From positions 4,588,001-4,652,000 of the forward strand of contig NZ_CP107796.1 in the NCBI RefSeq assembly GCF_036345995.1: DNA of 64,000 nt, read 5' to 3'. Below are positions 2,878 through 59,010 of this stretch, one piece after another. Every line of letters starts with the position of its first letter. Positions within the stretch are counted from its first letter, which is position 1. Under the pieces are notes generated by a model that had not been told where the DNA came from, did not search any database, and worked only from the letters and a program-made list of their open reading frames with translations. The translations under genes and the position numbers were made by a program. The stretch comes from Streptomyces sp. NBC_00557 (GTDB lineage Bacteria; Actinomycetota; Actinomycetes; Streptomycetales; Streptomycetaceae).

Positions 2878-2940
2878 GGTAGGCGCGGTTCGGGGGCGCG
2901 GACAGTGGGTGGCCGAGGCGAGGGGGAGTGCTGGGCGAGG

Positions 2941-3202
2941 ACGGTGGTGCCGGTGCCGGGCCGAGTGCCCCGCCGGGAACAGGTCCGGGACCGGATACGG
3001 CTCACTCAGGCCCTGTGGTCCGGGGAACCGGCGTCCTGCGACGGCGAGTTCGCGAGCGTCCGGGCCGGGCACGCGTACCCCGGGCCGGTGCGCGGGCCGC
3101 GCGGCCGGATCACGGGCCCGCGCACGCTCGTCGGCGGGGCGGCCGTGGGCCGCGACACCGCCGCGCTGGTGCCGCGGGGCGCCGGACGAGTGCGCGCGGT
3201 AC
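2941..3202 (+). pseudogene. Relic of an LLM-class (F420-dependent) oxidoreductase
   Basis: In frame 1, upstream of fbiC, an open stretch reads like the middle of a luciferase-like monooxygenase: LTQALWSGEPASCDGEF, then VRAGHAYPGPV, then a Gly-rich TLVGGAAVG. In intact family members the corresponding sequence follows an R(L)xEAL-type helix with ALWSGEP and a D-G-E-F/Y pair. Only ~85 residues remain, with no plausible start, and the frame runs into fbiC. Many actinobacterial members of this family use coenzyme F420, so a relic beside the F420-precursor gene is notable. Judged by eye from a family pattern. Confidence 0.4.
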
Positions 3203-5818: not shown

Positions 5819-5883
5819 GTACGATGATCCGACCCCCGACCCCGGAAGGGGCCCCATACGCCTAGCGTCAGGAGAAGCGTCCC

Positions 5884-42693: not shown

Positions 42694-42737
42694 TGTGCCT
42701 CCGGCAGGATTCGAACCTGCGACACCCGCTTTAGGAG
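42694..42737 (-). other. Attachment-site copy 1: 3' half of tRNA-Arg(CCU)
   Basis: Read on the minus strand it contains the anticodon arm from CTCCTAAAGC, the T-arm GGTTCGAATCC and acceptor end GGAGGCACA. No 5' tRNA half follows at higher coordinates, so it is a scar left by site-specific integration into a tRNA gene. The same 44 bp (one mismatch) recurs at 55864-55907 in the same orientation. Direct repeats like this are the attL/attR sites of integrative elements. Confidence 0.8.
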
Positions 42738-55863: not shown

Positions 55864-55907
55864 TGTGCCCCCGGCAGGATTCGAACCTGCGACACCCGCT
55901 TTAGGAG
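55864..55907 (-). other. Attachment-site copy 2: 3' half of tRNA-Arg(CCU)
   Basis: Same 44 bp as 42694-42737 except one base (C at 55870 where copy 1 has T at 42700). On the minus strand it ends GGGGGCACA, which fits a normal Streptomyces tRNA-Arg(CCU). The tRNA 5' half does not follow, so it is again a scar. It is the end from which the element at 55,908 onward begins; integrase lies 160 bp away. Confidence 0.82.
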
Positions 55908-55920
55908 AAAACGTTCATCG

Positions 55921-56025
55921 TCCATGAGTCTCGGTGAGGCTGAGTGAGCCTCAGTGAGTCTCGCAATGCAGGGGGCTGACCTGGAAAAGCAGGTTTCAGT
56001 GAGCCTCGGTGAGGATCAGTGAGGG
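55921..56025. repeat. Two arrays of TCAGTGAG-type decamers beside the attachment site
   Basis: Array one (55921-55960): TCCATGAGTC, TCGGTGAGGC, TGAGTGAGCC, TCAGTGAGTC. Array two (55996-56025): TCAGTGAGCC, TCGGTGAGGA, TCAGTGAGGG. The period is exactly 10 bp in both. They lie between the attachment copy and the integrase gene, where integrase arm-binding sites are expected. The same decamers recur inverted at 58311-58370. Confidence 0.75.
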
Positions 56026-56030
56026 GGTGT

Positions 56031-56061
56031 TGTGGCATCCATGTGGCATCCGCGTGGCATC
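56031..56061. repeat. Three 11-bp direct repeats (GTGGCATCC core)
   Basis: GTGGCATCCAT, GTGGCATCCGC, GTGGCATCCGG in direct succession, immediately downstream of the integrase stop codon (56067). Possibly accessory protein-binding sites for excision; different sequence from the decamer arrays. Confidence 0.65.
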
Positions 56062-56066
56062 CGGCC

Positions 56067-57350
56067 TCACACCGCCTTCAGCAGCCGCTCGGGCTCGGGC
56101 TTGTCCGGGACCATCGCGGCGAGGACCTGGGCCGCCACGTCCTCCGCCGAGTGCTGGTACAGCCACGTCACCTTCGACCCGCGGTCGTGGCCCATGACCG
56201 TCTGCACGTCCTTCTCGGGGACGCCGAGGTCCTTGAGCCGGGTGGCGAACACATGGCGCAGGTCGTGCACCCGCGGCCACCACTCGTCCCGGCCCGTCTC
56301 CTCGTTCCTCACCTTCCGTGCCAGGCCAGCGGCCTGGATCGCAGGGATCCACGTCCGGCGGAAGTTGTGACGAGTCAGGCAGCCGCCGTTGGGCCCGCGG
56401 AACACCAGCTCTTCCGGATGCAGGTCCCGCCCGTCACCGATGGGGGAGACAGTGGTGACCGGCTTGAAGCGAGCCGCCATCGTCTCGACGGCCTCAACGG
56501 CCTCGGGGGTGAGCGGCACCGTGCGGAAGCCGGCCACCGACTTGGGCGCGGCCTTGCGGATGAGGGTGCCCTTGTCCTCGGTGAGCACTTCCTTCACCTT
56601 GAGGTGCTTAGCTTCCAGGTCGACGTGAGCCCACCGCAGACCGGTCGCCTCGCCCCAGCGCATGCCCGTCTCCTCGAGGAACACGACGAGGGGCCGGTAC
56701 CAGACCGCGACGTGCTGGCGGATGAGCGCGCACTGTTCCCGGGTCGGCGGCCGGGTGTCCTCGGCGTCCTTCTTCGGCGCCGCTCCGATCTCGACCTCGG
56801 CGGCCGGGTTGAACGGGATCCGCTTGCCGTCCTTGATCGCCGCGCGCAGCATCTGGTTGAGCAACTCCATCACCTTCTTGCGGGTGTGGTAGCCCTTCAC
56901 CTCATTGGTGATCCACTTCTGGAGCTCGATGTACTCCAGATCGCACAGCCGCCAGCCGCCCCACTTCGGCTCGATGTGGGCCCGCCAGTTGCTCAGCTTC
57001 CTGTTCGTCGTCGTCACGGCCTTCTTCGGCTGCGCTGGCCACCACAGCTCCCACCACTGCGAGAGCGTGATCTCGCCGCGCTTAGGGTCGGCGTACGTCC
57101 GCTTGCGCACCCGGGTGCGGACCTCATCGAGGAACGCCTCGGCGGCCTTCTTGCCGCCCTCGCTGATCGGGAAGCATTTCTGCTTCTGCCTCCCGTCCGG
57201 GTCCCGGTAGCGGGCTTGCCAGGACCCGGTGCAGTCGCGCCGGCGGTTGCGCTGGCCGTACTTCTCGGGCGGGTACTTCTCCATGCAGAGAGGGCAGCCG
57301 CAGGTCTTCTGGCGCAGCTGGCGGGGGTTGTTCGAGCCCCTACGCCCCAT
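56067..57350 (-). CDS. int: Tyrosine-type site-specific integrase
   Basis: 427 residues, ATG at 57350. Integrates and excises the element at the tRNA-Arg gene. The N-terminus has four Cys/His-rich residues (CGCPLCMEKY), then an arm-binding-type segment, SAM-like core-binding domain (LSQWWELWWPAQPKKAVTTT) and the catalytic domain: EETGMRWGEATGLRW (Arg near 231), HDLRHVFATRL (near 362) and MGHDRGSKVTWLYQH with the nucleophile Tyr near 396. All boxes are intact and the length is complete, so it should be active. Adjacent to the attachment site, as is usual; the ATG overlaps the previous gene by 11 bp. Confidence 0.93.
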   Translation of the reverse strand: MGRRGSNNPRQLRQKTCGCPLCMEKYPPEKYGQRNRRRDCTGSWQARYRDPDGRQKQKCFPISEGGKKAAEAFLDEVRTRVRKRTYADPKRGEITLSQWWELWWPAQPKKAVTTTNRKLSNWRAHIEPKWGGWRLCDLEYIELQKWITNEVKGYHTRKKVMELLNQMLRAAIKDGKRIPFNPAAEVEIGAAPKKDAEDTRPPTREQCALIRQHVAVWYRPLVVFLEETGMRWGEATGLRWAHVDLEAKHLKVKEVLTEDKGTLIRKAAPKSVAGFRTVPLTPEAVEAVETMAARFKPVTTVSPIGDGRDLHPEELVFRGPNGGCLTRHNFRRTWIPAIQAAGLARKVRNEETGRDEWWPRVHDLRHVFATRLKDLGVPEKDVQTVMGHDRGSKVTWLYQHSAEDVAAQVLAAMVPDKPEPERLLKAV

Positions 57351-57588
57351 GGTTCACCACCTGTTCAGTCATTCGCTGGTGAGGTATGCGGGGGATCAAG
57401 TCGACAGGCTCCCCGCACCAGCAGACTGCACCGAACGCCGGCTGGTCCACGATGAGTTCGCGGAGAATGGCGCGTACGAGCGTCACGGTGTGTACGTGGG
57501 GAAGCCCGCTCGGGACCCTGATCACACGCTTGTCGGCATCGAAACCCGGCTGGCTCTCAGGCCGAGCGAAGTGGACGCGGACACACAT
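57340..57588 (-). CDS. Small conserved element protein (Cys-x-Cys)
   Basis: 82 residues from ATG 57588 (GGGGG five bases before it). Begins MCVRVHFARPESQPGFDADK, has GLPHVHTVTLVRAILREL and ends with the Cys motif AVCWCGEPVDL. Proteins like this are often the gene just upstream of int in actinomycete integrative elements; function unknown. Its 3' end overlaps int by 11 bp, so they are coexpressed. Confidence 0.6.
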   Translation of the reverse strand: MCVRVHFARPESQPGFDADKRVIRVPSGLPHVHTVTLVRAILRELIVDQPAFGAVCWCGEPVDLIPRIPHQRMTEQVVNHGA

Positions 57589-57713
57589 GCGTACCCCCGG
57601 AATGCGCAGGTAGAAGGGACCTGTCGCCGACGGGGGAGGACATCGGCAGCACGTCCGACCGTACCTCCGGATGGTGGAATTATCGACCACTGTTGAGCAT
57701 GTTGTTAACGACG

Positions 57714-57740
57714 ACTCACAGTGAGTGAACGCTTCCGTTC
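57714..57740. promoter_or_regulatory. Two adjoining palindromes upstream of the int operon
   Basis: ACTCAC-A-GTGAGT (57714-57726) carries the GTGAG core of the decamer arrays in both directions; directly next to it GAACG-CTTC-CGTTC (57727-57740). Located 126-152 bp before the small gene that precedes int. Confidence 0.55.
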
Positions 57741-57775
57741 ATACGGAGACTCGCGGAGGACGTGCAGGGTTGTAC

Positions 57776-58147
57776 CTACTGCCCCGTGCGGTTCATCTCA
57801 TTCAGGGCGCGCAGCTCAACTTCCTTCGCGCGCTGCTGGTCCTCGGTGAGACCGCGCCACAACTCGAGGATGCGGGCCTCGGCCTCAGCGCTGAGAGGGC
57901 CTGGGGACTGACGGCCGGCGGCGCGGAAGATCTCCTCTTCGGTGAACTTGGGGAACTCGCGCGCGAGCGCTTGGAGTGCCTCCCGCTTCGGTCCGCGGCC
58001 GCCGCCGCGCTTGCGGTGCACCCAGCTGTTCACCGTGGCGGGAGCGACGCCAATGCGGCGCGCGATCTCGCTGTCACTGACCCTGTACGTGTCCTTGAGT
58101 CGAGCGAGAAGCTGCGCCAGATCCTCTGTGCGCTCCGGCTTGTCCAC
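57776..58147 (-). CDS. HTH repressor of the integrative element
   Basis: 123 residues from GTG 58147. N-terminal XRE-like helix-turn-helix (LAQLLARLKDTYRVSDSEIA, then GVAPATVNSWVHRKRGGGRG), then a helical C-terminal part. It points toward int and is divergent from the Cro-like gene. The perfect 10-bp inverted repeat just before its start suggests self-control. Likely the maintenance repressor of the element. Confidence 0.75.
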   Translation of the reverse strand: MDKPERTEDLAQLLARLKDTYRVSDSEIARRIGVAPATVNSWVHRKRGGGRGPKREALQALAREFPKFTEEEIFRAAGRQSPGPLSAEAEARILELWRGLTEDQQRAKEVELRALNEMNRTGQ

Positions 58148-58168
58148 GCACTAAGACTGCCTGTTGAT

Positions 58169-58196
58169 CTTCTACTTTTGCAAGCGAAAGTAGAAG
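58169..58196. promoter_or_regulatory. Operator: 10-bp perfect inverted repeat before the repressor gene
   Basis: CTTCTACTTT (58169-58178) and AAAGTAGAAG (58187-58196), 8-nt spacer, ending 22 bp upstream of the repressor GTG. AT-rich for this genome. Confidence 0.7.
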
Positions 58197-58310
58197 CGTG
58201 GCGCATAACGGCCGCGGCGTGCGACCTCCCCGTCACACGCCGTTGCGCTCGGCATATGCCACACCTCTAGAACACGCTTTCGAAATATGCCACAGGCGGC
58301 GTGCGGTCAT

Positions 58311-58370
58311 CAACACTCACTGACACTCACTGAAACTCACCGACGCTCACTTGACCTCATTGACACTGAC
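58311..58370. repeat. Six tandem decamers, the complement of the attachment-side arrays
   Basis: CAACACTCAC, TGACACTCAC, TGAAACTCAC, CGACGCTCAC, TTGACCTCAT, TGACACTGAC, exactly 10 bp each. Read on the minus strand they give TCAGTGAGTG twice and TCGGTGAGTT, the same words as the arrays at 55921-56025. They lie between the repressor gene and the Cro-like gene. Confidence 0.75.
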
Positions 58371-58387
58371 ACAGTAGAACTGTGTCA
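58367..58387. promoter_or_regulatory. Operator: TGACACAG palindrome before the Cro-like gene
   Basis: TGACACAG (58367-58374) and CTGTGTCA (58380-58387) with 5-nt spacer; one half-site (TGACACAG) recurs at 58696-58703 at the end of the Cro-like gene, ahead of the excisionase-like gene. Both sites precede rightward genes, suggesting one regulator for both. Confidence 0.65.
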
Positions 58388-58435: not shown

Positions 58436-58714
58436 ATGACCGACCTGATCCGCAAGGGCGAAGGCCAGCCACTTCGAGACGCAATGGCGCGCCGCGGGGT
58501 GACGCAGGCCGAACTTGCCGCACGAACGCGGGAGGTTGACGTCCGCGGACAAGGGGTCAGCGTCGCGACCGTCAGCAAGGTGACCGGACGCGGCAAGACG
58601 GCGGCGAAAGTGTGCCGGCTGCGTACGGCGTGGCTGATCACCACGGCGCTGGACGAACCCTTGCAGCAGCACTTCGACATGCCCTCAGTTTCTACTGACA
58701 CAGTGGAAAGGTAA
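58436..58714 (+). CDS. Cro/XRE-like small HTH protein
   Basis: 92 residues from ATG 58436 (GAGGC before it); an upstream ATG-like start at 58382 (GTG) would add 18 residues that lie on the operator. The helix-turn-helix reads RDAMARRGVTQAELAARTRE, then GVSVATVSKVTGRGKTAAKV. Divergent from the repressor and the first gene of the long rightward operon, a Cro-like position. Confidence 0.65.
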   Translation: MTDLIRKGEGQPLRDAMARRGVTQAELAARTREVDVRGQGVSVATVSKVTGRGKTAAKVCRLRTAWLITTALDEPLQQHFDMPSVSTDTVER

Positions 58715-58719
58715 ATCCC

Positions 58720-59010
58720 ATGGCGACTCAGACCCTCGCTGAGCGCTCCGAGACGCTCCGCCCTACCGGGCTCTCGCCTCTCCTCACCACCGCCGAGCTG
58801 ATGGCGCGGTACGGCGTCTCCAACTGGACGGTGAACAAGTGGGTGCAGCGCGGATGCCCCGTGGAGCCCACCGTGTTCCGCGGCAGGCGATTCGACCCCG
58901 ACGCCGTCCGCAGCTGGATGGCGAAGGAGGCCGGCGTCGCGGCCGCCGACCGCGACTCGGCCCCGCCGGCCCCCGAGTTCATCCCGAGCCGTCGCAAGCC
59001 CCGCGCATGA
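58720..59010 (+). CDS. xis: Excisionase-like MerR/HTH_17-type DNA-binding protein
   Basis: 96 residues, ATG at 58720, 5 bp after the Cro-like stop. LLTTAELMARYGVSNWTVNK, then WVQRGCPVEPTVFRGRRFDP and AVRSWMAKEAG is the winged-helix excisionase/HTH_17 pattern. It would bend DNA at the attachment site to direct excision by the integrase. Basic C-terminal tail. Confidence 0.75.
   Translation: MATQTLAERSETLRPTGLSPLLTTAELMARYGVSNWTVNKWVQRGCPVEPTVFRGRRFDPDAVRSWMAKEAGVAAADRDSAPPAPEFIPSRRKPRA

Follow-up and report, generated by a model that had tools for sequence, protein, structure and literature searches.

Why does one short DNA word stand in tandem both beside the attachment site of a prophage and, inverted, at its repressor/Cro switch 2.3 kb away, and which protein reads it there? 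The question is posed by a 64,000-nucleotide stretch of Streptomyces sp. NBC_00557 (contig NZ_CP107796.1, positions 4,588,001 to 4,652,000; hereafter the window), which holds one end of a 56-kb prophage of the tailed-phage type integrated in tRNA-Arg(CCT) of the 9.02-Mb host genome. Decamers of the TCAGTGAG type follow one another in exact 10-bp steps at the attachment (att) side and at the switch of this prophage (Table 1), and a comparison of related elements makes it very likely that they serve as operator sites for the recombination directionality factor (RDF) that the prophage itself encodes, a putative winged helix-turn-helix (winged-HTH) excisionase (Xis), which would act in excision at att and in feedback on the early promoter pR at the switch.

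The two decamer arrays

On the att side, six clear decamers form two triplets, 65 bp apart from start to start, and on the opposite strand at the switch five decamers are in register (starts at 58316, 58326, 58336, 58346, and 58356), the fourth and fifth being degenerate. The initial annotation had described the same type of decamer at the att end and, in inverted orientation, at the switch, and this is seen at both places; its counts of seven and six were too high, with a seventh att unit that is off-word and a sixth switch unit that is unconvincing. Its proposal that the 10-bp period places all sites on one face of the helix holds roughly within a triplet but is too strong for the whole set, as the 65 bp between triplets amount to 6.2 turns at 10.5 bp per turn. 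A dimer pattern, TCRSTGAGNNTCRGTGAG, allowed at most one mismatch, has six matches in the entire genome, every one inside the two arrays, and the reversed control of the pattern has none.

By sequence, the prophage is related to the Streptomyces phages VWB, mu1/6, SF3, and OnionKnight, which share its integrase family and its gene order and likewise carry paired arrays. Their integrases are about 86-87% (OnionKnight), 74-75% (VWB), 73% (SF3), and 57.5% (mu1/6) identical to that of the prophage, and a homologous int together with the rep / cro-xis gene order is common to the prophage and the VWB/mu1/6-type phage module. A first gathering of relatives gave 27 distinct loci (L053-L056 being duplicates), of which seven, L065-L071, were left out of the statistics; the resulting 24-element set comprises this prophage, 11 and 8 other loci, and 4 phages. 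A larger set of 80 loci, including viral contigs and further genomes, was reduced to 54 elements by dropping 13 loci with short flanks (L061 among them), L141 and L142 with no recognisable Xis, the viral contig L094 with an interrupted integrase reading frame, and 10 loci in which the last 60 residues of both Xis and Cro were the same as in another locus. Detection of decamers in the 24 elements used a CTC anchor, with those of OnionKnight placed by hand; detection in the 54 used neither, and its triplet spacings were drawn from a preset list and are not evidence. Undetermined residues were written as A in translations used for profile searches of the large set.

The genes int, orf2, rep, cro, and xis are present in the same order in all 24 elements, with decamers between int and the attachment core in each. 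The word itself varies by element: VWB has that of this prophage, SF3, mu1/6, and OnionKnight have different ones, and the words of the relatives include CTCACTGA, CTCGGAAGTT, CTCGGCGAG, CTCGGAACCA, and CTCTCTGA, with a CACTCGG word in OnionKnight and loose words in L057, L061, and L063. Under freer detection, the triplets are spaced by 54, 55, 65, 66, or 75 bp in 23 of the 24 elements, the differences being about one helical turn; the spacing in mu1/6 is 68 bp, its second triplet being mis-registered. The initial annotation had staked its proposal on such paired arrays recurring in related elements, and they do recur, in the same gene order and with element-specific words.

The words at att and at the switch tend to match within an element and differ between elements. 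In 20 elements, up to 4 kb upstream of int was scanned with the matrix derived from the element's own att decamers; for 16 of them the top-scoring triplet fell between -925 and -1050 on the same strand, with a z against shuffles of at least 4.2 in 14 of these and of 2.8 in L029 and L030. In a swap test of the rep-cro interval in the 24 elements, the mean centred score of the own matrix was 13.6, compared with a maximum of 7.7 over 20000 permutations; in the 54 elements it was 13.75 against 4.74 permuted (p=5e-5, the permutation limit), with an opposite-strand control of 2.68 and the own strand scoring above the opposite strand in 52 of 54. In 53 of the 54, the resemblance among the six att decamers exceeds the best obtained from 60 shuffled searches. 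Because the two words change together across the 54 elements, a single element-encoded protein is probably the binder at both arrays, as had been supposed from the window alone.

The protein that the decamer word follows

Across the 54 elements, decamer word similarity follows the identity of the excisionase-like protein best, with rank Mantel correlations (att-att/switch-att) of 0.54/0.57 for Xis, 0.48/0.49 for Cro, 0.18/0.18 for the repressor, and 0.13/0.11 for integrase; Xis had been among the binders first put forward. A replication-type initiator had been another, but it is the excisionase-like gene that the arrays track. Partial correlations, each protein given the others, are 0.40/0.42 for Xis and 0.29/0.29 for Cro (p 0.001), with integrase (0.07/0.04) and repressor (-0.01/-0.01) not significant, and the 24 elements give the same order of proteins (Xis 0.65, Cro 0.54). 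The clearest discordant case is OnionKnight, in which Xis (45% identical to that of this prophage) and both arrays have changed, with integrase and Cro (86%) nearly alike. VWB has the same word as the prophage, with integrase about 74-75%, Cro 66%, and Xis 77% identical.

The excisionase-like protein, of 96 amino acids, is encoded near int, and xis is the second gene, after that of the Cro-like protein, in all 24 elements. Its best family match is phrog_66, "excisionase and transcriptional regulator" (6.2e-12), followed by phrog_57, "terminase small subunit" (5.3e-6), and the nearest solved structure is that of BldC, both by family profile (6amk, 6.7e-7) and by fold. The structural model is modest, with a mean predicted local distance difference test score of 68.4 and values of 73-85 over residues 21-70; BldC is the first Foldseek match (E 0.01, probability 1.00), none falling below E 0.001, and a winged-HTH fold is likely. 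The cut-off of TIGR01764 excise was missed (14.6 vs 28.8 bits), and for the BldC family NF033787 the window protein was not listed, the mu1/6 homologue reaching 30.1 bits vs a cut-off of 77.

In the VWB record (L072), the Xis homologue at 2893-3126 is annotated as "terminase small subunit", with phrog_66 at 8.8e-9 vs phrog_57 at 3.7e-5, and the first decamer triplet, at 5829-5855, is annotated as a stem-loop "putative transcription terminator"; both look like misannotations.

Several observations weigh against assigning the decamers to Xis. Cro keeps its independent partial correlation with the word, and some contact between Cro and the decamers could still occur. Taken by themselves, integrase residues 1-93 show a correlation with the word across the 24 elements (r 0.33, p 0.0005). 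Within Xis, the correlation does not centre on the parts that contact DNA, residues 1-20 (r 0.56) correlating as well as the recognition helix (0.49), with the wing at 0.29, so shared descent contributes to the signal. Individual pairs deviate: SF3 and L027 have Xis proteins 73% identical yet unlike words, and WIN/L095 and L024/L080 have Xis proteins 55% identical with like words, both pairs sharing a VSNWTVN helix. The scan with the own att matrix missed 4 of 20 elements (L025, L057, L061, and L063), the own matrix ranks in the top tenth for 31 of 54, and it ranks only 18-22 of 54 in L025, SF3, L090, and L139, the switch array of SF3 fitting its own att word poorly. Decamer triplets were not recognised in L065-L071 (integrases 43-48% identical), nor a Xis in L141 and L142 (integrases 48% identical). 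Additionally, the family profile of the excisionase-like protein also matches terminase small subunits (1j9i, 2e-6), and the Pfam HTH_17 cut-off was missed (22.0 vs 27.0 bits).

Alternative binders

A reading in which the Cro-like protein binds both arrays as Cro and excision factor, leaving other work to the winged-HTH protein, gains from the correlations of Cro identity with the word given above, and from the position of cro as the first gene here, the first early gene of 186 and P2-like phages being that of the RDF (PMC7498355). We regard it as unlikely, since the word departs from Cro where Cro and Xis part company: pairs with Cro at least 72% and Xis at most 55% identical have a low mean centred att-att word score (3.3, 22 pairs, with WIN/L095 and L024/L080 as exceptions), whereas pairs with Xis at least 70% and Cro at most 68% have a high one (14.5, 28 pairs), and OnionKnight combines a conserved Cro with a different word. 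The excisionase family match, moreover, belongs to the winged-HTH protein and not to the Cro-like one. Cro proteins usually bind palindromes, and a palindrome is present over the proposed -10.

The decamers might also be arm-type sites of integrase, which would then regulate the switch as well, as the initial annotation had allowed for the integrase arm domain; they do lie in the interval from core to int, arm sites are typically short tandem repeats, and the correlation of integrase residues 1-93 with the word points the same way. This is very improbable, however, as integrase seems to have 11-bp repeats of its own on both arms and the word follows it weakly. In all 24 elements, the interval that separates the decamers from int contains repeats resembling GATGCCAC or GAGTCCAC at a spacing of 11 bp, and a pair of the same type as on the int side lies 63-83 bp beyond the core on the other arm in the 4 of 4 elements read; in this prophage, two more repeats of the GATGCCACNNN type are found there, 72 and 83 bp beyond the core and outside the window. 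Such repeats have the layout expected of integrase arm sites, which we propose them to be. Decamer scores in the four elements with both arms read are 30.9 to 41.4 on the int side and -3.2 to 8.4 (highest in SF3) on the other. With separate 11-bp repeats on both arms and decamers on the int-side arm, the decamers are left to another protein. The two kinds of repeat also vary separately, L026 having the decamer word of this prophage and GAGTCCAC arm repeats, and L062 and L027 sharing the CTCGGAAGTT decamer with different arm repeats. Furthermore, pairs with integrases at least 80% and Xis at most 55% identical have unlike words on average (-6.2, 55 pairs), and those with Xis at least 70% and integrase at most 62% identical average 16.1 (28 pairs). 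Host factors such as BldC or a nucleoid protein could in principle occupy the arrays, whose match would then be inherited history and not the mark of one phage-encoded binder, and Streptomyces BldC does bind direct repeats one turn apart (PMC5859096). There is very little probability in this either, as the words differ among phages of the same genus and track a phage gene, which a single-specificity host protein would not explain, and the BldC consensus given there, AATTXXXX(C), is unlike the decamers.

The identity of the excisionase-like protein as the putative decamer binder is well supported. In the mechanism that we propose, the RDF would bind the decamers head to tail, each decamer taking up roughly one protomer. 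Bound to the att decamers, which stand on the int-side arm with the core to one side and the proposed integrase arm repeats to the other, it would bend the DNA and, together with integrase, bring about excision, a role suggested by its family. In the lysogen the repressor would hold pR; upon induction, perhaps via the LexA-like box, pR would transcribe cro and xis, and RDF on the switch array would cover the -35 of pR, most simply as negative feedback, and might also repress the opposing rep-orf2-int operon. Promoter positions and the sign of regulation, read from sequence, are weakly indicated. For a DNA loop between the arrays, raised in the initial annotation, no support turned up, no test having been aimed at looping.

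Comparison with known systems

The initial annotation knew of no description of such a layout, yet 186 Apl and the P2-like RDFs have already been described in this way (PMC7498355). That account assigns 186 Apl seven direct repeats in the pR-pL interval and five at attP, with att and promoter sites alike in sequence and arrangement, and has the P2-like RDFs (Cox) acting both at attP and at the promoters of the lysis-lysogeny decision, on direct repeats with a period of about one turn. As in those phages, one operator word and arrangement is seen here at att and at the switch. The RDF gene is the first early gene there, whereas here the RDF-like gene is second, behind a separate Cro-like gene, and the sites there lie between face-to-face promoters, whereas here the genes are divergent and the array lies over the proposed pR -35. 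The RDF-like protein here is BldC/HTH_17-like, and Apl is called an outlier among RDFs in the same source. RdfS of ICEMlSym(R7A) is a winged-HTH RDF that binds attP and its own promoter, for which no consensus word emerged (PMC11963761); here the words are clear and shared, and the family profile hits RdfS only weakly (8dgl, E 0.14). BldC binds head to tail to 9-bp direct repeats and bends DNA (PMC5859096), but is a host developmental regulator with an AT-rich consensus and not an excisionase.

As 186 Apl, the P2-like RDFs, and RdfS act likewise, the principle is known. What is new here is its version in actinophages with a BldC-like candidate RDF, a separate Cro-like first gene, and an array placed at pR, together with dozens of natural protein/operator pairs whose operators change together at two sites. 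In searches of an open-access library, where the integration papers on VWB (1998) and mu1/6 (2012) appeared only as citations, we found no report of paired arrays in the VWB/mu1/6 phage group.

It is conceivable, though rather doubtful, that RDF specificity types evolve like immunity types, an excisionase and some eleven operators at two distant sites being repeatedly rewritten together, possibly so that co-resident prophages avoid mutual excision or derepression. If true, the element set would hold a readable recognition code between RDF and operator. Seen by eye, examples would be a decamer with AC or GG in positions 4-5 when helix residue 35 is N or D, and one with CGAG or AAGT when the wing reads GRGRRF or GRQKRF; the segment analysis of Xis singles out neither helix residue 35 nor the wing. 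A likely function is given to a repeated, so far unexplained feature of the Streptomyces phage group that includes VWB, from which integration vectors have been built, and the findings indicate which gene and which DNA sites would serve in excising such vectors. The dozens of natural RDF/operator pairs, each with its operator set twice, make DNA recognition and co-evolution directly testable.

Other features of the switch and of the element

Table 1. Positions in the window of the decamer arrays, attachment core, genes, and proposed regulatory sites.
Feature	Position	Strand	Basis or remark
Attachment core	55865..55908	-	44-bp copy of tRNA-Arg(CCT) 3' half
Decamer triplet adjoining core	55929..55958	+	matched by own-word triplet at switch
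Decamer triplet adjoining int	55994..56023	+	
Three 11-bp repeats GATGCCACNNN, proposed integrase arm sites	56029..56061	-	
Tyrosine integrase, 427 aa	56067..57350	-	Phage_integrase 9.9e-18
Open reading frame 2 (ORF2), conserved between repressor and int	57340..57690	-	phrog_22170 2.7e-21; no known function
Palindrome CTCACAGTGAG	inside 57713..57728	.	probably separate conserved site before orf2-int
HTH protein, proposed repressor	57776..58147	-	HTH_23 7.9e-6; mu1/6 counterpart annotated "transcriptional repressor"
Palindrome TTCTACTTTTGCAAGCGAAAGTAGAA, proposed operator upstream of repressor gene	58170..58195	.	
LexA/SOS-like box TAGAACACGCTTTCGA	58268..58283	.	
Switch array, five decamers	58316..58365	-	
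Proposed early promoter pR (TTGACC, 18 bp, TAGAAC), overlaps array end	58351..58380	+	inferred from sequence
Palindrome TGACACAGTAGAACTGTGTCA over proposed -10, proposed repressor or Cro operator	58367..58387	.	
Cro-like protein, first rightward gene	58436..58714	+	phrog_14639 cro-like repressor 5.8e-36
Winged-HTH excisionase (RDF)-like protein, second rightward gene, proposed decamer binder	58720..59010	+	phrog_66, BldC-like model, co-variation

The rep and cro genes are divergent, and the switch array overlaps the -35 of the proposed pR, a TTGAC-N16-20-TA(G/A)AA pattern being present in 21 of the 24 switch regions. At the place of TTCTACTTTTGCAAGCGAAAGTAGAA, CTAC-N12-18-GTAG is found in 23 of 24 elements; this palindrome and the one over the proposed -10 differ from each other. 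A site with at most two mismatches from TCGAACNNNNGTTCGA occurs in 19 of 24 switch regions, the shuffled best averaging 4.0-4.8 mismatches, and TAGAAC-N4-GTTCGA stands at the switch of L023, L029, L031, L032, and L062. The published LexA box consensus is tCGAAC-N4-GNNCGa (PMC9380542), and the recA and lexA genes of this genome have LexA-like sites nearby (CGAACATCCATTCT and CGAACGTGTGTTTG). The strict LexA-like pattern is in mild excess genome-wide (21 sites vs 14 in the control), and with so little enrichment SOS induction of pR is a suggestion.

The palindrome before the int operon, which had been grouped with the decamers, does exist; its counterparts with 0 or 1 mismatch in L025, SF3, and OnionKnight, whose decamer words differ, make CTCACAGTGAG look like a different site. 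A ACTCACNGGGAGTGA-like motif at 57713-57740, likewise before orf2-int, is also seen in several relatives whose decamer words differ and is perhaps part of an int promoter or operator. ORF2 itself is present in 66 of 67 loci. Close to the switch, at about 58250-58290, ATGCCAC words were considered as integrase arm sites and rejected, L026, with the arm word AGTCCAC, having none there by eye.

Genes for terminase, portal, prohead protease, capsid, tail, and GH25 lysin lie between both attachment copies, and an identical copy of the core with the intact tRNA gene is at the far end of the element (111868-111911 in window numbering, outside the window). ARAGORN found no tRNA in the window, Rfam at gathering scores gave nothing there, and a tandem-repeat listing added nothing. 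A second copy of the tRNA-Arg 3' end, 98% identical, is at 42694-42737, 13 kb to the left of the prophage, and the 42.7-55.9 kb stretch may represent a further element, whole or as a remnant, that integrated at the same site.

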